From: a virus
Length of the DNA stretch: 33,872 nt
Virus record (IMG/VR): IMGVR_UViG_3300046804_006776
Coordinates: 1-33,872 of that record
Reading direction: 5' to 3' (one strand)
The stretch's first letter is position 1; every line of letters begins with the position of its first letter. Positions 1,262 to 17,972 of this stretch are shown here, piece by piece. The notes under the pieces are model-generated. The model searched no databases, was not told the DNA's origin, and saw nothing but the letters and a program-made list of their open reading frames with translations. A program made the translations under genes and the position numbers.

Positions 1262-1785
1262 TCGAACACCTATTACAGGATCCGGGATATAGGCGTGCTC
1301 GTGACTCGGGCTCGTGGTGGGTATGGCCTGCTCCTTGTAGTATAGAACCCCCTAGTTGGGAACAGTTATTGGAAAACATAGCATTCAGTAGCGCCCGCCG
1401 TGGGGAGTTGCGAGTGCTGAATAATTTGGGCTTTGTGGGCTATCATGCTCAACGCATACCCCTAGTGGGCTCAATACGTCGTGAGCTACAAACAGAATGC
1501 CCTGATACAGAAACCAGCGCACACCTATTCCTCAGCATGGGCCAACAGAGTGCGGGCTATGGGCGGCACAAAGATGACAGCGATCTATGGTTTTGGCAAT
1601 GCTACGGAACTACAGATTGGCGTGTGGAACACCCTGATGGAGACTTTGTGGGTACCCTGGGCCCGGGCTCTTGGATCTATGTACATAGGGAGCTCTATCA
1701 CACAGTACGCCCCCAGGGTGCTAGGGCCGCTATATCATTTGCCAATCATTACTTGATACCCAAGAACTCAATCAAACTCTTTTGA
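1258..1785 (+). CDS. cupin/JmjC-like Fe(II) oxygenase
   Basis: A 175-residue protein. A HKD triad at 104-106 is followed by WFWQCYGTTDWRV, a PGSWIYVHRELYH run ending in H148, and R156. HxD, then a strand pair with a tryptophan, then PG-D/S-x-x-YxPxxxxH resembles the JmjC/ribosomal-oxygenase type (YcfD, No66) of 2OG oxygenase core. The protein is much shorter than those families, which usually have extra winged-helix domains. It starts at an ATG whose ATGA overlaps the stop of the upstream oxygenase, indicating translational coupling. Its 3' end overlaps the convergent radical SAM gene by 37 bases. The substrate is unknown. A non-catalytic cupin is an alternative reading. Confidence 0.6.
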   Translation: MIEHLLQDPGYRRARDSGSWWVWPAPCSIEPPSWEQLLENIAFSSARRGELRVLNNLGFVGYHAQRIPLVGSIRRELQTECPDTETSAHLFLSMGQQSAGYGRHKDDSDLWFWQCYGTTDWRVEHPDGDFVGTLGPGSWIYVHRELYHTVRPQGARAAISFANHYLIPKNSIKLF

Positions 1786-3215
1786 TATTCGCGCTGTCTG
1801 TTAACTAGCAGTCTAGATATAGGGTATTTGCGATGTATGGCTTCCACGGACATGCTCTTCATTTCTTCTAGGCCGATACCCAGGTTAGCATAGTCCTGTA
1901 CATAAAACTCACTGATGCGAGCACGATCTTTGAACAGGCCTATGATCCTACTGCGCCAGCGGTCACAGACAGCATTGTCCAAACTATTAGAGGGTAGGCT
2001 CCAGCCTCGACCCACACGCTTGTATCCGTAGACATCTAAGTTTAAATTAAACTGGCTCCACCCATCTGATTGTGTAGCACCCTCGGGGGCTGGGGGTCCT
2101 AGCCATAGGGTATTGATGCTTAGGTTATCTACTGGACAGGCAGGGTCTGTTGCCCATGCTTCCAGTTCTTTGAAGTATTCTTCGGTATCATAAGGTAAGC
2201 CCAGGATAAGCCCCACTGATACTAGTACACGATCACCCCATAGGGCTCGTAGACGTACTAGCTCTGCCTTAGTACGCTTAGGGTCCAGCCCTTTGCCCAC
2301 GCATTGGGCTGACTTCTTGTTAAATGTTTCCACCCCAAAGAAACAGCCCACTAGGCCCATGTCTAATACTAGATCAGCAGTCTCGGGCCAACGCTCTATT
2401 AGATCCAGGCGTAGGAAACAGCTGAACTGGGGTTTAAAGGGTAGCGTCTTAAACATAGCATGTAGTTCAGCTAGACGCTCACGATCATCGTTAAACGTAT
2501 CGTCTGTAAAGTAAAAACGATTACAGCCCGTTGTAGCATGTGCTCGAAGCATTTGATCGCGTATCTGCTCTACAGGGCGTTGATAGGTGCCCTTCTTTTT
2601 ACCAATTAAAGGATAGCTACAGAACTTACATTGAAATATACAGCCCCGAGCCATTTCTATGGGTAGGGCTTCGTTAGGCAATAGGCAGTAGCTGGGATCG
2701 CTCCAATCAGTGTCAATATGTGCTGGGTCAGGCTCCGGATATGTGCGGCTGTCTACAAAACGTGGGGGTAGGTTACCCTGAGCTAGACTATGTGTATAGG
2801 CTATGACGCTGGTATCAGCATAGCCCGTGATGTAGGTATCTATGCGATCATCAAAGGCAAATAAGTGTGCGTAGGCGCCCCCGTAGACTAGCCAGGCCTT
2901 GCTACGGGCTTTGATATAGTCAAACAGCCAGTCCATATCGTTTAGTGATCTACTCCACATATGAGCCCTGGGGGTAGATGGGGGTGAGTTGCCAACCATG
3001 AATGTACTGGACCAGCCTACCCATAGGGTATCTGGGCCCAAGAGTTTATCCATTATTAGGGCTAGATCATTGCGTGACCAACTGCTGAACCACTCAACGA
3101 CCTGTACAGTATAGCCAGCATCTTTTAATGCTTGGGCTATTCTATAGGGTCCAAGGGTGCGCCTAAAAGAAAAGACATCTGTTGATTTGTCGTTGAATAA
3201 AACGACCTGCGCCAT
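1749..3215 (-). CDS. radical SAM protein with degenerate B12-binding-like N-domain
   Basis: A 488-residue protein. Residues 1-140 form an alternating strand/helix region of the B12-binding type found in many radical SAM methyltransferases and oxidases, but without the DxHxxG cobalamin motif. The radical SAM core starts with EMARGCIFQCKFCSYP, giving cluster cysteines C192, C196 and C199. FTDDTFNDD, GVETFN and GLPYDTEE stretches follow, typical of B12-type radical SAM cores. It is clearly paralogous to the protein at 11664-13202: both have RRTxGxxRIA near the N-terminus and RGCIFxCxFC. It starts at TAATG, overlapping the stop of the SPASM enzyme upstream in the operon. Reaction and substrate are unknown; peptide or glycan modification is an inference. 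Its DNA is richer in G+C than most of the window. Confidence 0.85.
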   Translation of the reverse strand: MAQVVLFNDKSTDVFSFRRTLGPYRIAQALKDAGYTVQVVEWFSSWSRNDLALIMDKLLGPDTLWVGWSSTFMVGNSPPSTPRAHMWSRSLNDMDWLFDYIKARSKAWLVYGGAYAHLFAFDDRIDTYITGYADTSVIAYTHSLAQGNLPPRFVDSRTYPEPDPAHIDTDWSDPSYCLLPNEALPIEMARGCIFQCKFCSYPLIGKKKGTYQRPVEQIRDQMLRAHATTGCNRFYFTDDTFNDDRERLAELHAMFKTLPFKPQFSCFLRLDLIERWPETADLVLDMGLVGCFFGVETFNKKSAQCVGKGLDPKRTKAELVRLRALWGDRVLVSVGLILGLPYDTEEYFKELEAWATDPACPVDNLSINTLWLGPPAPEGATQSDGWSQFNLNLDVYGYKRVGRGWSLPSNSLDNAVCDRWRSRIIGLFKDRARISEFYVQDYANLGIGLEEMKSMSVEAIHRKYPISRLLVNRQREYQKSLIEFLGIK

Positions 3216-4603
3216 TAGACAGCCTTGATGGGTATGATCTTTTGATTAGTTTCAGGACGCTCGCCACCTACCCACCAGAAGATATCCTTACGGTCTTCAC
3301 GTTGTGGGCCTTCGATGTATTTTGGGATCATGCCGGTCATGCTTTCAATAGCTGTGGCAAACATGACAATGTTGTCACTGAAGGCATTGTTACAGCTGGT
3401 TTCCCATAGGGGTCCGCTCAAGAACATACAAGCACCACGGCAGATGTGCAGCACAGGGCACTTAGGGCATTCTTCACGATCGCTCCAATGTGTGCTACTC
3501 TTTAGTTCTACAGCATCTAGATCGCTTACATGCCCTACCTTATGGCTAACTCCGGCTGGGTTAGTTGATACAGCCGATACGTTTTGGCAAGTTAATACAT
3601 TACCGTCCAAATCAACAGTCATGTTATCTGGCTGATCCATGCCGCACTTCTGACCCATGCCCGCACTCTTTAGTCCAAACCTAATACTCTGTACAAAGTC
3701 CGTAACCTTTTGTGAAATAACTCCAAAGCGTCTAGGTTGTTTATCGCGTATTTCCTGTAGGGCAAACTGACGATAGATAATCTGTTGCTTGTCTGTCATT
3801 AGACTGTTGGCCAGTCCGCCTTCATCGTAAGCATCGATAAACGCACCCTCGCCGATAGTTAGGTAGTCTAGCATATCATCGCCTAGCTCTTTGAGAATAA
3901 GCTCTTCAAACCATTGTTGGCATTCGGCACGACTAGCATTGCGAGCGTGTATCATTACATTGAAGCTGAAACGATTAGCGGGTGCTAGACGTTTGTATAA
4001 TTCTAGAATCCATTTACGGCTAACAGGATCTTCTAATGGATCTGGACCGCGTGTGCCTTGTCCAGGACCGTCGTGCGATACGGCAACAACAAAGTTAAGG
4101 GCATTTAACCAACGCACCTTTTCTTCATCAAGCAGACTACCGTTAGTAATAATGCTCTTGACAGCGTGTGGGTAACGACCGTGTATTAGTTCTGCTAGAG
4201 GTTTGAGTGTTTTCCAATAGACTAACGGCTCCCCACCCCAGAATTCGATTTTAGTGCTTTCACCCATGCCATCAGTTCCGCCGTTGAACCAGTTTTCCAT
4301 ATTGTCCACAAACGGTTTAATATCTTGAGGATTGTGTGATTCACTATGTGGGACGAAACGCTGATTACAATAGTCGCAGGCAAAGTTACACTCAAGACCC
4401 AATTGAATCTTTAGAATAACTGGTTGTTTACCCATTGGGATTTTAATTTGTCCTACATCAGGTTGATCTGCTACTTCTATATCTGTAAGAACAGGCTCTC
4501 GTGTATCAGCCCAGATCAATGTACTATCTGAATTGTCGTACTCCAATTGCCTTTCATGCGTATGATCGGCAGGGTTGTAAACAGTAACGGTAAATTTAGC
4601 CAT
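3215..4603 (-). CDS. radical SAM/SPASM enzyme (anSME / peptide-maturase-like)
   Basis: A 462-residue protein. The cluster motif LGLECNFACDYCNQ supplies C72, C76 and C79. A KIEFWGGEPL stretch is the SAM-amino-group GGE motif, and SIITNGSLL and VAVSHDGPG are further core motifs. The C-terminal third is a SPASM domain with a cysteine set (CGMDQPD, LTCQN, EECPKCPVLHICRGAC, TSCNNAF) that would ligate auxiliary Fe-S clusters. This domain order is that of anaerobic sulfatase-maturating enzymes and peptide-modifying maturases, which act on protein or peptide side chains. The ATG at 4603 is chosen over an in-frame upstream ATG at 4684 because it gives an 8-base overlap with the upstream gene and a normal N-terminus (MAKFTVTVYN). 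It sits in the same operon as the Asn-Cys protein at 7180-7467, a candidate substrate. Confidence 0.88.
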   Translation of the reverse strand: MAKFTVTVYNPADHTHERQLEYDNSDSTLIWADTREPVLTDIEVADQPDVGQIKIPMGKQPVILKIQLGLECNFACDYCNQRFVPHSESHNPQDIKPFVDNMENWFNGGTDGMGESTKIEFWGGEPLVYWKTLKPLAELIHGRYPHAVKSIITNGSLLDEEKVRWLNALNFVVAVSHDGPGQGTRGPDPLEDPVSRKWILELYKRLAPANRFSFNVMIHARNASRAECQQWFEELILKELGDDMLDYLTIGEGAFIDAYDEGGLANSLMTDKQQIIYRQFALQEIRDKQPRRFGVISQKVTDFVQSIRFGLKSAGMGQKCGMDQPDNMTVDLDGNVLTCQNVSAVSTNPAGVSHKVGHVSDLDAVELKSSTHWSDREECPKCPVLHICRGACMFLSGPLWETSCNNAFSDNIVMFATAIESMTGMIPKYIEGPQREDRKDIFWWVGGERPETNQKIIPIKAV

Positions 4604-5618
4604 ATGTGGGTGCGTCCTTAAAATATATGTTAGTGTAATTATCCAACAAAGCGAACCACTCGTGCTTTTTTGTGTAGAGTACACTAACTGCTTTGTCTTT
4701 ATACGATGTATAGTTGTTTGGGCCTATCCATCGATCTATTAATTGTCTCATTTGCCAACGATGTGTTAGATTGTCGGCAGGATCTAATTGTTTTGGTTCT
4801 TTGGTAGACATTGCCCATTGCTGGATTTCTGTGCTGTCAAAGAACGCATGAATTTCTCCGTAGTCCTTTAGGGGAAAGTAAATGTTCTGTTCGTACTTCA
4901 TTCCTTGCCAGGGGAAGTTAAACATCATAAAACATCTAAAGTCTTCTACAGTTTCTATTGTGCCAGGATATGCTCGAATGCTAGGATCTAGTATTTCTAA
5001 TATTTCCGGATCAACAACAGTCTTGTAATCTTTATGTATTGTTTCTAATGTGCCAAACTTAAATGGAGTGCCCGTGTTGTTAAACCAGTTGCCAGGACCA
5101 AATATTTGATTACCCAACATACCAGATACATATAGACATTCCTTGTTGGCCACAAGATCTAATCCAAATACACCTATTGTATATTTTACACGATCTCTAA
5201 TGTATTTGTCAAACAATTCGCCTGCTTCAATTATGCTGGCATAGGTTCCAAACACTGACACTTGTCCAGGTTGGGCATATTCTAATAAACACATTAAGGT
5301 AAACGTGCTGTCCAACCCTCCGCTCCATAATACAGTAATAGGTTTGTTTTGTGCTATCAGTTCCTGTGCTCGGATACGAGTAGCATCTTCAAAAGATATA
5401 ACTCTTGCTTCCGGTAATGGATCTAACAGTTTGATATTAAAGAAATGCGGCAACTGTCCTGTACGATCTATTTGGGCGTTAATGTGCTTGCCAAATACCT
5501 GTTGATATTTGTCGTATAGACCTACATCAATAAGAAAAGGGTCTAAGACCCTACTAGGTCTTCCTTTTATTAGTTTGGTTGTAAGTATTGGATTGTAAGC
5601 AATTATAGACTGTGTCAT
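4596..5618 (-). CDS. asparagine-synthetase-like PP-loop ATP enzyme
   Basis: A 340-residue protein. The ATP-pyrophosphatase P-loop is VLWSGGLDSTF (SGGLDST at 99-105). A second stretch, VSGMLGNQIFGPGNW (164-178), resembles the acceptor-site region SGxGxDExFGG of asparagine synthetase C-terminal domains. No N-terminal glutamine-hydrolysing Cys2 domain is present; the first 90 residues are unrelated. Enzymes of this class adenylate a carboxylate and transfer it to an amine or ammonia. Related stand-alone synthetase domains close the macrolactam ring of lasso peptides and build beta-lactams. It overlaps both neighbours (TAATG at its start), between a small unknown gene and the SPASM enzyme. Amidation, cyclisation or peptide ligation of a substrate made in the operon is inference. 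Confidence 0.75.
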   Translation of the reverse strand: MTQSIIAYNPILTTKLIKGRPSRVLDPFLIDVGLYDKYQQVFGKHINAQIDRTGQLPHFFNIKLLDPLPEARVISFEDATRIRAQELIAQNKPITVLWSGGLDSTFTLMCLLEYAQPGQVSVFGTYASIIEAGELFDKYIRDRVKYTIGVFGLDLVANKECLYVSGMLGNQIFGPGNWFNNTGTPFKFGTLETIHKDYKTVVDPEILEILDPSIRAYPGTIETVEDFRCFMMFNFPWQGMKYEQNIYFPLKDYGEIHAFFDSTEIQQWAMSTKEPKQLDPADNLTHRWQMRQLIDRWIGPNNYTSYKDKAVSVLYTKKHEWFALLDNYTNIYFKDAPTYG

Positions 5619-5929
5619 TACAATCTATTTACAAGGCGCAATGATAGTGTCCAGCGTCCTTGGGTTCTGTGTACAATAGGTAGACGGTTGTCTATTATAC
5701 GTTGTTTGTTATTTTGGACCCAGTCTTTCATTAATGGATCTAGGTTCAGTTCTGCTTCGGGAATAAACACTCCAGGCTGATCGTTGCGTAAGGGGCTAAG
5801 GCTAGAATACTGGAATATATCTTTTACTCGATAATATTCGTGATCGTTGTTTTCTGCTTCGGGTCCGGGATTAACATGTAACGGAACAGAGTCTATTGAC
5901 CAAACTGCTCCATCTATAAAAGGTTTCAT
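5618..5929 (-). CDS. hypothetical protein in the PP-loop/SPASM operon
   Basis: A 103-residue protein starting at the ATG at 5929, which overlaps the TGA of the virion-like gene upstream as ATGA. An in-frame upstream ATG at 5965 would cause a much longer overlap. No signal peptide or membrane segment is seen. Features are a proline-rich mid-section (HVNPGPEAENNDHEYYRVKD), the segment GVFIPEAELNLDPLMKDW and a basic C-terminus. I do not recognise it. Its place between a structural-type protein and the asparagine-synthetase-like enzyme allows two readings: a small virion accessory protein, or a partner of the modifying enzymes such as a leader-recognition or scaffold protein. Confidence 0.6.
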   Translation of the reverse strand: MKPFIDGAVWSIDSVPLHVNPGPEAENNDHEYYRVKDIFQYSSLSPLRNDQPGVFIPEAELNLDPLMKDWVQNNKQRIIDNRLPIVHRTQGRWTLSLRLVNRL

Positions 5930-7164
5930 GACAGGGTCTTTTCTACAGTCTCTGCGTTTGTCCAATATTTGAATCCTACCTTAGCACTAGCTACATCTCC
6001 CGGCTCTAGTGTAGTAGTCAGAATCTTAAATGTACCTGTGCCGTTAGTTAACTTAACTTCTAGGCGATCAGGAATACCGCACACTTGCTCTACATATAAT
6101 TTCTTTATGCTAGGATGTGTGTGGACCTGTACAGTGACAGGATCCCCTGCGGCAACATCACCGTCTGGAACAACACACCATACTTCTTCAATTAGTTTAT
6201 AAACAGGCTCTTTTACAGGACCAGTCCAGGAAGCCATTTGACTAGCAATGCCGGCAGCATCCCATTCTGATGCGCTAGGACCCCTTAAAAATTCATGTGG
6301 GGTTTGACTATTCATATACAAATGCCAAGACAATTGAGAAACAGACGTAAATGTCTTGTCATGAATGTAGACCATTATTGGAGTAGGTACTCTGTTAGAT
6401 GTTCTTTGCCCTTGTATAACAGGATTAATTTCGACTCCTGATCCTTTATTTTCAGTTGTTCTTTGAAATACCGGAACAAACCTATTCATGATCCATACTT
6501 TGTAGTTCTTGATTATAGTTGAAGTAGTCAACAAACGAACTTTATTCAAATAATCAAATTGGCTGAAGTTAAAACCATTAGATTGCGGAATTTTGTTTTC
6601 TTCAACATCAAATACGTCACACTCTAACGCAAACAACGATTGATCTACACTAGAAGGTGATGTTCTAAAGTTTTGAATATTAGCAATGATCTGTCCGCGG
6701 TTGTATGTAACAGTTGATGTGCTTTCTGTTGTTGCATCGACTAGATAAACTAATTGTACAGATGCTGTTGAAATACTGTTCGGGTTCTCTGGGTCAATGA
6801 CTGTAACAGTTGGCTGATAAATGTATCCACTCCCAGTTGTTGTAACAATCACATCAGTGATTGTTCCTGTGGTAATAACTGGTGTTGCTGTAAATTGTGT
6901 GCCACCTGCTACATCTGGAGAACTAAAAACAAGATAGGTAGAAGTTGATAATTCAGTTCCCCCAGAATCTACCTGAACAGCCTGTATACCGTAGGCAGAC
7001 TCTATAACATCTTCTTCAACTCTAAATTCAAAATTGTTTTGTTGGATGTTGATATAGAATTTTTGATCCTGGAACCGATTCATATCTGGGCGATACGTGA
7101 ATAGGCGTTGTCCTCGATCTTGCGGGACAAATTCTACTGACTGAGCTGAAGTAATTACGGGCAT
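5926..7164 (-). CDS. virion-type structural protein (fibre/neck-like)
   Basis: A 412-residue, beta-rich, Thr/Ser/Val-rich protein without signal peptide. Residues around 110-125 read VIVTTTGSGYIYQPTVTV, matching the 'GSGY..PTVTV' module repeated in many T4-like phage virion and fibre proteins. The N-terminal part (VEFVPQDRGQRLFTYRPDMNRF) and the C-terminal beta-rich part (PDGDVAAGDPVTVQVHTHP) look like assembly domains. It follows the Asn-Cys protein by 15 bases and is preceded by an AAGGA about 12 bases from the ATG. It overlaps the next gene by 4 bases. I infer a structural role from composition and this module; the exact virion position is unknown. Confidence 0.6.
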   Translation of the reverse strand: MPVITSAQSVEFVPQDRGQRLFTYRPDMNRFQDQKFYINIQQNNFEFRVEEDVIESAYGIQAVQVDSGGTELSTSTYLVFSSPDVAGGTQFTATPVITTGTITDVIVTTTGSGYIYQPTVTVIDPENPNSISTASVQLVYLVDATTESTSTVTYNRGQIIANIQNFRTSPSSVDQSLFALECDVFDVEENKIPQSNGFNFSQFDYLNKVRLLTTSTIIKNYKVWIMNRFVPVFQRTTENKGSGVEINPVIQGQRTSNRVPTPIMVYIHDKTFTSVSQLSWHLYMNSQTPHEFLRGPSASEWDAAGIASQMASWTGPVKEPVYKLIEEVWCVVPDGDVAAGDPVTVQVHTHPSIKKLYVEQVCGIPDRLEVKLTNGTGTFKILTTTLEPGDVASAKVGFKYWTNAETVEKTLS

Positions 7165-7179
7165 TTAAGTATTAATTCC

Positions 7180-7467
7180 TTAACAATTACAGTTACAGTT
7201 GCAATTGTAGCAATTGACGTAATAGTAGTACATTGTCCATCCAGCACAGTTTACTAGATAAATCTTAGGATAACAGTTACCAAAGCTGATGTTACCACAG
7301 TTACCAGCGCCGCCGTTTAACCAACCGACGTTGTAAGAGTTACGGTTTACTTCGTTAAAAGTGTTACCATATAGGTAACCGGAGTTGTTTGATAACTGGC
7401 TGATGTATCCTTGTAAGTTAACACCGCTGTTAAAAACGATACCATCGTTATAGATATATGTTGACAT
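7180..7467 (-). CDS. Asn/Cys-rich small protein ending in (Asn-Cys) repeats; candidate modified-peptide precursor
   Basis: A 95-residue protein with extreme composition: 20 Asn, 13 Tyr and 8 Cys, and only four charged side chains (D8, E39, R42, K68). All eight cysteines (57, 65, 74, 86, 89, 91, 93, 95) are directly preceded by Asn, and the last eight residues are four Asn-Cys pairs after a YYYY run. The N-terminal half has no cysteine and could act as a leader; the C-terminal 40 residues would be a core. It is the first gene of a minus-strand operon that also holds a radical SAM/SPASM enzyme, an asparagine-synthetase-like enzyme and a B12-type radical SAM enzyme, which would suit a ribosomally made modified peptide. 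A disulfide-rich or metal-binding tail-tip protein is a serious alternative, since a virion-type gene follows at once. It is preceded by a TAAATA late-promoter word. Confidence 0.7.
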   Translation of the reverse strand: MSTYIYNDGIVFNSGVNLQGYISQLSNNSGYLYGNTFNEVNRNSYNVGWLNGGAGNCGNISFGNCYPKIYLVNCAGWTMYYYYVNCYNCNCNCNC

Positions 7468-16012: not shown

Positions 16013-17194
16013 ATGCTATTCATACATAAAACAACATCTCTTTGTGATCATTGCTATCGACACATTCCGGGAAATGTGATCGAAGAAAACAATCAAATTG
16101 TATTATTAAAACGATGTCCTGAGCACGGAGAAATGAAGTCTATTGTGGAGATTGATAAAAATTTTTATTATAATTTAACACATACGGCAATCCCTATCCA
16201 ACTTGGCCATATGCTGTTTGAAGTAACTGACAAGTGCCAATTAGAATGCCCGCATTGCTATCATTTACCGGATAACAAAGCATTAGACAAAGATATCGAA
16301 GAGATTATAAAACAAGTAAAATCATTTCCTAAATATTGTAGACCTTTAATAGCAGGAGCAGAGCCAACCCTTCGAAAAGATTTTGTTGAATTGTGTAGAC
16401 GACTCAAGGCCACTGGCTTAGAAGCATTTGGAGTATTGACTAACGGTGTTCGATTTGCTGATAAAGAATTTGCTCAGGCTGCCTGGGATGCTGGATTACA
16501 ACACGCAGTTGTAGGATTGAATCATTGGACCTATCAGGGAAAAAAGATACATGATAAGCAATTAAAAGCTATTAAAAACTTAACTGACATTGGATACTGG
16601 ATGGGGTATGTTGGATATACTATCGAAACTTTAGATCATATTCCTGATATATTAACAGAGATTGAAACTATAAAACATCCTCTCATATGGCAATATCGAA
16701 TAAGATGCGGAAGTTTTATAGGTAGGAGTGGAGATACAGAACGCAGTTACCTTAGTAGTCTAGTAAAAGCTGTTGAAAAATTTTATGATCAGCCATTAGA
16801 ATATGTAGGACCAGATGACAATCCATATCATTTTATGGTAAAGACTCCGACGGGAGTCGTTTTGAGATTAATACAGTGGCCGGATGTGACTAATATCGAT
16901 ATGGAAGAATTACGAACAGGTCCCTGGTCTACTTTTGTCGACGGTGCGCCGGCTACTAATTTTGTTCATCAAGTTATTACGCGAGATGCTTATAAAAACA
17001 TGAAACGCAGACCATTGGACATTTGTCCACCTAGATATTATTGTACACATCCTTCTACGTTAGAAGGTAGTCATTGGAAACATGATTGGAAAGGGCCAAC
17101 AGAAGTTACTGAATTAGATTGGACATATATTCAAGAGCCTATCCCTGCACCGAGATATTTTAGTTTAACGCCAACAAATGAAACTAGGTCCTAA
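16013..17194 (+). CDS. radical SAM protein of the COG1964/Tes-like type
   Basis: A 393-residue protein. A small N-terminal metal-site region (CDHCYRHIPG and KRCPEHGE: C11, C14, C35, H38) precedes the radical SAM core, as in the archaeal tetraether-synthase-like and related COG1964 enzymes. The cluster motif is FEVTDKCQLECPHCYHLPD (C75, C79, C82), with AGAEPTLR as a GGEPTLR variant. The C-terminal part holds further cysteines near CPPRYYCTHP. Family members join or modify unreactive carbons of lipids or other substrates. Here the partner is an overlapping QueC-like gene (17 bases), followed by a glycosyltransferase and an oxygenase. The substrate is unknown. Confidence 0.83.
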   Translation: MLFIHKTTSLCDHCYRHIPGNVIEENNQIVLLKRCPEHGEMKSIVEIDKNFYYNLTHTAIPIQLGHMLFEVTDKCQLECPHCYHLPDNKALDKDIEEIIKQVKSFPKYCRPLIAGAEPTLRKDFVELCRRLKATGLEAFGVLTNGVRFADKEFAQAAWDAGLQHAVVGLNHWTYQGKKIHDKQLKAIKNLTDIGYWMGYVGYTIETLDHIPDILTEIETIKHPLIWQYRIRCGSFIGRSGDTERSYLSSLVKAVEKFYDQPLEYVGPDDNPYHFMVKTPTGVVLRLIQWPDVTNIDMEELRTGPWSTFVDGAPATNFVHQVITRDAYKNMKRRPLDICPPRYYCTHPSTLEGSHWKHDWKGPTEVTELDWTYIQEPIPAPRYFSLTPTNETRS

Positions 17195-17972
17195 CAATAC
17201 AGAATGGAGCATCGAAACAGCGTTTCCTAAGACGGGTAAGATGGCTGTGTTGTTTAGCGGCGGAATTGATAGTACCTTAATTGCTAGTATTGCGATAGAC
17301 CTATATGGTAAAGACAATGTTATACTGTTGTGGTCAGATTCTATGTTCTGCGAGGATGACAGCAGAATAAAGCAGACAATTAAATTTAATGTAAAAACTG
17401 TATCTCAATACTTAGACATAGTCCCCTATTATGCTCCGGTTGACTATGAGTATTTTAAAGAAGATCCACTATTAGCACAAAGGAATGCGTGGATGGATGC
17501 TCAATGCAAATTAGGATTTGACCATATGGCAATGGGCATGACTGCTATGTTCTGGGATATAATGCCCCTACAATCATTTAGTCGAAAAGAAATATTAGAC
17601 TACTGTAATAAAGATAGAGAAAAGTATAGAGCATTAATAGAACAATGGCACATGGATACAGATACATATACAGAGCATTTAAAAATGAAAATACACCCCG
17701 ATGTATTTAATTGGCTCAAATCTAATCTAGGTCAACAGTTTCATTTTCCATTGGGCACATTACACAAAGATGAAATAATTGATTTATTTTATAAATTAGA
17801 TAAACAAGATTTACTTTACAAAACAATATCCTGTATGTCCGGAGAAGGTAAACATTGTGGAGAATGTTGGAACTGTCAAAATAGGTACGATGGACATGAT
17901 ATAAATGGGATTAACGATCAAACAATATATCAAAGCAACTTAATTAAAGAGCGCAGGGAAAAAATAAAATGA
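17178..17972 (+). CDS. QueC-like PP-loop ATP-dependent enzyme
   Basis: A 264-residue protein. The PP-loop is AVLFSGGIDSTLIA (SGGIDST at 27-33). The C-terminal end has the zinc site of QueC: SCMSGEGKHCGECWNCQNR, cysteines 219, 227, 230 and 233. QueC turns carboxy-deazaguanine into the nitrile preQ0 by two ATP-dependent steps. The middle of this protein (about 100-200) has an AFWDIMPLQSFSRKEI region and is longer than in typical QueC. No queD, queE, folE, DNA transglycosylase or other deazaguanine gene is in the window, so a diverged amide- or nitrile-forming enzyme with another carboxylate substrate is as likely. It overlaps both neighbours. Confidence 0.78.
   Translation: MKLGPNNTEWSIETAFPKTGKMAVLFSGGIDSTLIASIAIDLYGKDNVILLWSDSMFCEDDSRIKQTIKFNVKTVSQYLDIVPYYAPVDYEYFKEDPLLAQRNAWMDAQCKLGFDHMAMGMTAMFWDIMPLQSFSRKEILDYCNKDREKYRALIEQWHMDTDTYTEHLKMKIHPDVFNWLKSNLGQQFHFPLGTLHKDEIIDLFYKLDKQDLLYKTISCMSGEGKHCGECWNCQNRYDGHDINGINDQTIYQSNLIKERREKIK

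Follow-up and report, generated by a model that had tools for sequence, protein, structure and literature searches.

Proteins carrying arrays of Asn-Cys dipeptides and a family of SPASM radical SAM enzymes encoded beside them make up, on the strength of gene linkage, a conserved enzyme–substrate pair. The best explanation of the data as a whole, which we regard as probable, is that the SPASM enzyme acts after translation on a virion protein of the tail-fibre type, modifying its Asn-Cys units and chiefly those of its C-terminal array. The pair is encoded in the window, i.e., the whole stretch of DNA analysed, the 33,872-base IMG/VR virus record IMGVR_UViG_3300046804_006776, and is also found in the cultured Achromobacter phages JWF and 2-1 and among the prophages of isolates with sequenced genomes (Limnohabitans, Thalassobacter).

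The operon and the Asn-Cys protein of the window

The NC operon lies on the minus strand, and the ends of its neighbouring genes overlap or almost touch. It is headed by the gene of the 95-aa Asn-Cys tail protein, the proposed substrate (7180–7467), followed by genes for a beta-rich phage protein of 412 aa whose C-terminal domain is Ig-like (5926–7164), a small protein of ca. 100 aa (5618–5929), a PP-loop protein of the ATP-pyrophosphatase type with an SGGxDST motif (4596–5618), the radical SAM/SPASM enzyme, the proposed maturase of Asn-Cys arrays (3215–4603), and, at the end of the operon, a B12-type radical SAM protein (1749–3215); the gene order and tight coupling stated in the original prediction thus hold. 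ATG 5929, which overlaps the stop codon of the 412-aa gene, is probably the start of the small protein, and ATG 4603, not GTG 4684, is probably that of the SPASM enzyme, whose relatives begin at the same MAxF. The operon consists of the core pair and three optional genes. The segment 1749–26962 of the window is an unusually dense modification island: the 34 kb hold eight genes of radical SAM proteins, together with several 2OG oxygenases and glycosyltransferase-like genes; its modification genes include those of a QueC-like PP-loop protein (17178–17972) and a zinc-ribbon HMPTM-type radical SAM protein (16013–17194).

Translation of the ORF at 7180–7467 bears out the claim that all eight Cys residues of the 95-aa protein are preceded by Asn and that four Asn-Cys pairs close it. 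The protein follows the pattern ...GNCGN..GNCYP..VNCAG..VNCYNCNCNCNC, with eight Cys and eight Asn-Cys, and its C-terminal end is NCNCNCNC, the (Asn-Cys)4 array (7183–7206, minus strand) lying directly 5' of the stop codon. Eight Asn-Cys pairs were reached in none of 200,000 residue shuffles of the protein, the shuffle maximum being seven. The codons of the tail (AATTGC TAC AATTGC AACTGT AACTGT AATTGT) are synonymously mixed, so the tail is no artefact of DNA slippage, and the shuffles and the codons together indicate that selection acts on the protein. The tail is of low complexity, as would befit a functionless product of chance or tandem repetition, but in view of the codon usage, the shuffles, and the strong linkage, seen in both directions, to a single family of enzymes described below, the probability of such an artefact is practically nil; the linkage data refute it.

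No full-length homologue of the 95-aa protein was found in viral contigs or phages, and therefore its co-occurrence with other genes was followed via the enzyme and via the tail motif. Its ties to other NC proteins are the tail, the gene order, and the enzyme, and on visual inspection its C-terminal half looks like the C-terminal tips of 380–440-aa fibre proteins (L017/L023; GNCGNI..NC..NC.NCNCNC). A Pfam scan of the protein gave no match, and among PHROGs only phrog_22680 was matched, weakly (E 0.027). We infer that this standalone protein is part of the virion.

Linkage of the array and the SPASM enzyme

The SPASM enzyme of the window has 30 relatives in viral contigs, with 53–70% identity; nearly all of those with sufficient upstream sequence are preceded by a gene for a 360–440-aa fibre-like protein ending in NCNCNC. 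A wider, alignment-based search gave 80 loci in bacterial genomes and 80 viral loci, the former in Limnohabitans, Polaromonas, Thalassobacter, Rhodospirillaceae, Magnetospirillum, and others, with several cultured isolates among them. Among 128 non-redundant loci with at least 2.5 kb of upstream sequence, a strict array is found upstream on the same strand in 99, a variant array (e.g., NCNCRCNC or NCNCVCNC) upstream in 11, and an array protein directly downstream of the SPASM gene in seven, which places an Asn-Cys array protein beside the enzyme in about 117 of the 128, against four arrays in the opposite-strand control. The loci without an array, about 10 of the 128, require 24 changes on the SPASM tree, close to random scatter, as expected if most of them represent missing data or degenerate tails.

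The reverse approach was a DNA pattern scan for an in-frame NCNCNC-stop, blind to the enzyme, which gave at least 119 loci. Among the matches listed, 32 of the 36 unique in-frame ORFs with at least 3 kb of downstream sequence are followed on the same strand, within 3.7 kb, by a SPASM homologue, compared with none of the 33 out-of-frame controls (Fisher p 1.6e-15), and the four in-frame exceptions among these listed matches are two ORFs of 35–36 aa and two proteins unlike fibres. For 30 more pattern loci the full records were examined: seven contain the enzyme, and in each of these seven the first stretch had stopped short of it; at other SPASM-negative pattern loci the array lies near the end of the stretch or record. 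The 35–36-aa ORFs were rejected as genuine tails, being chance ORFs. Two further groups, Cys-rich proteins of 184–190 aa and proteins of 202 aa ending in SNCNCNC (loci L052, L099, and L112, and L055, L085, L104, L120, and L138), belong to other families with no SPASM homologue in the full records. The co-occurrence with the SPASM gene that the original prediction called for is thus seen in both directions (32/36 of the matches listed and about 117/128); a wide occurrence of array proteins without a radical SAM gene, which would have spoken against that prediction, was looked for, and the pairing held. Plasmids were searched too, with no match.

The remaining genes of the operon were counted in 154 related loci. 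The gene of the beta-rich partner is present in 108 of them, usually directly beside the NC gene, and the fold of its product matches only uncharacterised Caudovirales proteins. 2OG-Fe(II) oxygenases are encoded in about 43 loci, homologues of the PP-loop protein in 22, the ca. 100-aa protein, which travels with the PP-loop gene, in 20, and homologues of the B12-type radical SAM protein in only five; the PP-loop enzyme and the B12 enzyme are accessories that a locus may lack, and the co-occurrence with the PP-loop gene that had been anticipated is confined to those 22 loci. A homology search with the PP-loop protein on its own gave one locus and weak matches. Its earlier description as asparagine-synthetase-like is corrected to that of a PP-loop ATP pyrophosphatase, with SGGxDST invariant in the family; asn_synth_AEB was matched with a best E of 0.0021, below the cut-off. 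The accompanying idea of a lasso-type cyclase is not supported: NF033535 was matched by one of the 22 members (best E 0.054), and lasso-type cyclisation was rejected as a general role, the PP-loop gene being rare and giving no lasso-cyclase score. A TRAP-transporter DctP-type solute-binding protein, apparently devoid of a signal peptide, is encoded in 17 of the 154 loci (e.g., L012:9693–10637; PF03480, E 1.7e-45), its gene sitting between the ca. 100-aa gene and the PP-loop gene in the NC-tail operon.

The repeated unit is the dipeptide. In 116 array proteins, whose arrays are of the type found in the window, Cys within the array is preceded by Asn in 380 of 540 cases, and at each of the first two array positions in 106 of the 116 proteins; in long arrays Ala, Asp, Arg, and other residues stand in for Asn, so that later positions do not strictly require it. 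Of the 322 Cys residues outside the arrays, 271 (84%) have Asn before them, compared with the 11% expected from the Asn frequency; what comes after Cys is variable there. The rule was not found in the neighbouring beta-rich partner proteins. The preference for Asn both inside and outside the arrays therefore points to an enzyme reading the Asn-Cys dipeptide, and, as judged from these sequence comparisons, the array is very probably modified by this SPASM enzyme. Alternatively, the array might bind metal ions or form disulphides and the enzyme act elsewhere, e.g., on the beta-rich partner, whose gene is also often beside it; Cys-x-Cys runs are classic metal-binding patterns, and some fibre tips contain His-rich stretches. 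This is considered improbable, since the array accompanies the enzyme more constantly than the partner does (about 117/128 and 108/154, respectively) and the Asn preceding Cys outside the arrays would be superfluous for metal binding or disulphides.

The enzyme and the proposed modification

The enzyme belongs to the radical SAM/SPASM proteins, scoring above the cut-off for PF04055 and with 35 versus 27 bits for TIGR04085, and possessing the CxxxCxxC motif. It falls in phrog_1802 (E 1.1e-61), a PHROGs family listed as a radical SAM domain-containing protein with no function or substrate; its link to Asn-Cys tails is new here. Ten Cys residues, three of the SAM cluster and seven of the SPASM domain, are invariant in all 53 sequences compared, none of which has a Cys between Cys321 and Cys340. 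Seven SPASM Cys is the count behind the open AuxI site proposed for AlbA; such an open site has been seen in CteB, while anSME is fully ligated (PMC6231123). By its sequence, the phage enzyme has a predicted sactisynthase-like open site, with one AuxI Cys ligand absent.

The AlphaFold2 model of the enzyme (pLDDT 92) has anSME as its nearest solved fold in Foldseek, with ChlB, CteB, TigE, SkfB, and SuiB also among the best matches. None of the named NCBIfam SPASM maturases (PapB, SCIFF, anSME, QhpD, CcpM, and others) was matched above its cut-off, the best score being that of PapB (55 versus 340 bits). Residues 1–60 of the model form three strands and no helix, so that, judged from secondary structure alone, a canonical RRE is not evident. 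The system is not filed in a RiPP class, because the named-family scores stay below the cut-offs and an RRE is not evident.

In the proposed mechanism the enzyme would take a hydrogen atom from Asn and then join the sulphur of the following Cys there, yielding a thioether; thioether chemistry on the array is given an even chance. The best guess at its product is a six-membered thiomorpholine ring, with Cys joined to the alpha-carbon of Asn, the alternative being a link to the beta-carbon; thiomorpholine specifically is, however, rather doubtful. A row of such rings would cap the fibre tip with a rigid structure proof against oxidation, probably serving in receptor contact or in locking the fibre end, and further steps may differ between phages, involving the 2OG-Fe(II) oxygenases or the PP-loop enzyme.

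A product other than a thioether, i.e., formylglycine made from Cys as by anSME, epimerised Asn, or a carbon–carbon link, is possible, though at clearly less than an even chance. It would accord with the 2OG oxygenases being frequent neighbours and with the closest solved fold being that of anSME, which oxidises Cys in a protein. Asp277 of anSME is the catalytic base of formylglycine formation. At the corresponding position of the phage family, directly after Cys340, Gln is found in 49 sequences, His in three, and Asn in one (n=53), the sulfatase-maturase score is 43 against a cut-off of 349 bits, and the absent AuxI ligand likens the enzyme to those of the sactisynthase type. The sulfatase-maturase class is accordingly disfavoured for want of Asp277.

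Thioether formation on Asn-Cys, the preferred reading, has its nearest chemical parallel in the enteropeptins, in which a radical SAM enzyme links Cys to the alpha-carbon of the preceding residue, giving thiomorpholine (PMC12395415, PMC12973295). The phage Asn-Cys dipeptide has exactly the Cys-to-preceding-residue spacing of these sactipeptides, but an enteropeptin is a secreted antimicrobial peptide of 7–9 residues with one ring and N-methylornithine as the partner, whereas the phage protein bears up to 10 consecutive Xaa-Cys units. The ranthipeptide maturases CteB (SCIFF) and PapB are likewise SPASM enzymes acting on Cys-rich substrates, the CteB fold being among the best matches and PapB giving the best NCBIfam score; however, CteB, which carries an RRE, works on a peptide with a leader, and the phage enzyme is far below the family cut-offs. 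The likeness to anSME lies in the best Foldseek matches and in the modification of Cys in a protein, and the JWF relative is annotated as anSME, but the phage enzyme differs at the Asp277 position, which is not conserved, in having one AuxI Cys fewer, and in its substrate.

Maturation by radical SAM peptide enzymes has been described for secreted peptides, for cofactors, and for a small number of enzymes of bacteria. QhpD, the maturase of quinohemoprotein amine dehydrogenase, makes thioethers in a protein subunit that is retained in a larger assembly, and its logic is the closest to that of the phage enzyme, whose substrate would likewise be a protein kept in an assembly. Nevertheless, the phage enzyme scores 49.8 against the 453-bit cut-off of TIGR03906 (QhpD), and the QhpD target is a subunit of a bacterial enzyme, not a virion. 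To our knowledge, a virion tip as the proposed substrate distinguishes the phage system from all SPASM enzymes with co-encoded substrates. In the open-access papers searched, no report was found of a virus modifying its own particle by a radical SAM enzyme, nor of NCNCNC tails.

Proteins bearing the array

The arrays are borne mostly by tail-fibre-type proteins encoded in tail gene clusters, both of free phages and of prophages that cultured bacteria carry, and these substrates are often fibre-like proteins of 300–440 aa. The array ends at most 12 aa from the C-terminus in 93 of 106 cases. Tail genes adjoin the array gene in JWF, in 2-1, and in the Limnohabitans and Magnetospirillum prophage loci.

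Of the two readings offered originally, a virion tip modified by the enzymes and a RiPP precursor, the former is strongly supported by the two-way linkage and the fibre-borne arrays, and the latter is weakened by the 300–440-aa substrates and an RRE that is not evident. It is highly improbable that the protein of the window is a true RiPP precursor from which a secreted peptide is cut off a leader. Such a role would suit a small (95 aa), Cys-rich protein co-encoded with two radical SAM enzymes, and at some loci array proteins of 80–98 aa occur in tandem, but most relatives carry this type of tail at the end of a 300–440-aa fibre-like protein, the enzyme model shows no evident RRE, and the neighbourhood clusters contain no conserved protease or exporter. 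The conserved neighbours of the NC-array loci are structural genes and oxygenases.

The array of the modified fibre would be exposed at the terminus of the polypeptide either directly or by a Hint domain. Such a domain lies 3' of the array in 12 loci, including the Achromobacter siphoviruses JWF and 2-1, in which the array–Hint junction is NCNCDCNCNCSC|FPAGTMV. PJWF_00028 of JWF combines a fibre-type N-terminus (Shufflon_N, E 5e-7) with a Hint domain after the array (Hom_end_hint, E 3e-12) and is thus a fibre with Hint. The cut presumably falls just before the first Cys of the Hint domain. The presence of Hint requires about five changes on the SPASM tree, so exposure of the array by self-cleavage seems to have arisen repeatedly.

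It is proposed tentatively, with somewhat less than even confidence, that covalently modified virion tips of a class not described before occur in tailed phages and prophages of at least the Burkholderiales and Alphaproteobacteria, consisting of adjacent thioether, perhaps thiomorpholine, rings that a dedicated radical SAM enzyme makes on a full-length fibre, with the array exposed at the free C-terminus directly or via Hint. If true, this would reveal a further level in the construction of receptor-binding tips by phages and provide a large natural substrate set for a new maturase family, with the in-frame NCNCNC-stop beside a SPASM gene as a sequence handle; Asn-Cys tails could also be used as gene-encoded templates for peptides with stapled ends.

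Several variants of the array proteins were observed. In about nine loci (L300:7248–8129, L302, L303, L305, L306, L307, L312, L314, and L317) the stop codon after the array is replaced by a C-terminal domain of ca. 170 aa starting with CSKIICTKLYE; two members were scanned against Pfam with no match, and it may be one more domain that serves in processing or anchoring. The tandem array proteins of 80–98 aa mentioned above number two or three per phage in some phages. In loci L051, L053, L105, L109, and L132 the array proteins are 125–173 aa long, with 15–21 Cys, of which 14–19 are in Asn-Cys, and their genes lie 12–19 bases upstream of the SPASM gene, possibly as a minimal two-gene form of the system. 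In Thalassobacter stenotrophicus (L212) a 94-aa NC-tail gene beside the SPASM gene lies between 2OG-oxygenase-like genes (5241–5981 and 6246–6890), an arrangement that recurs in other Rhodobacteraceae loci.
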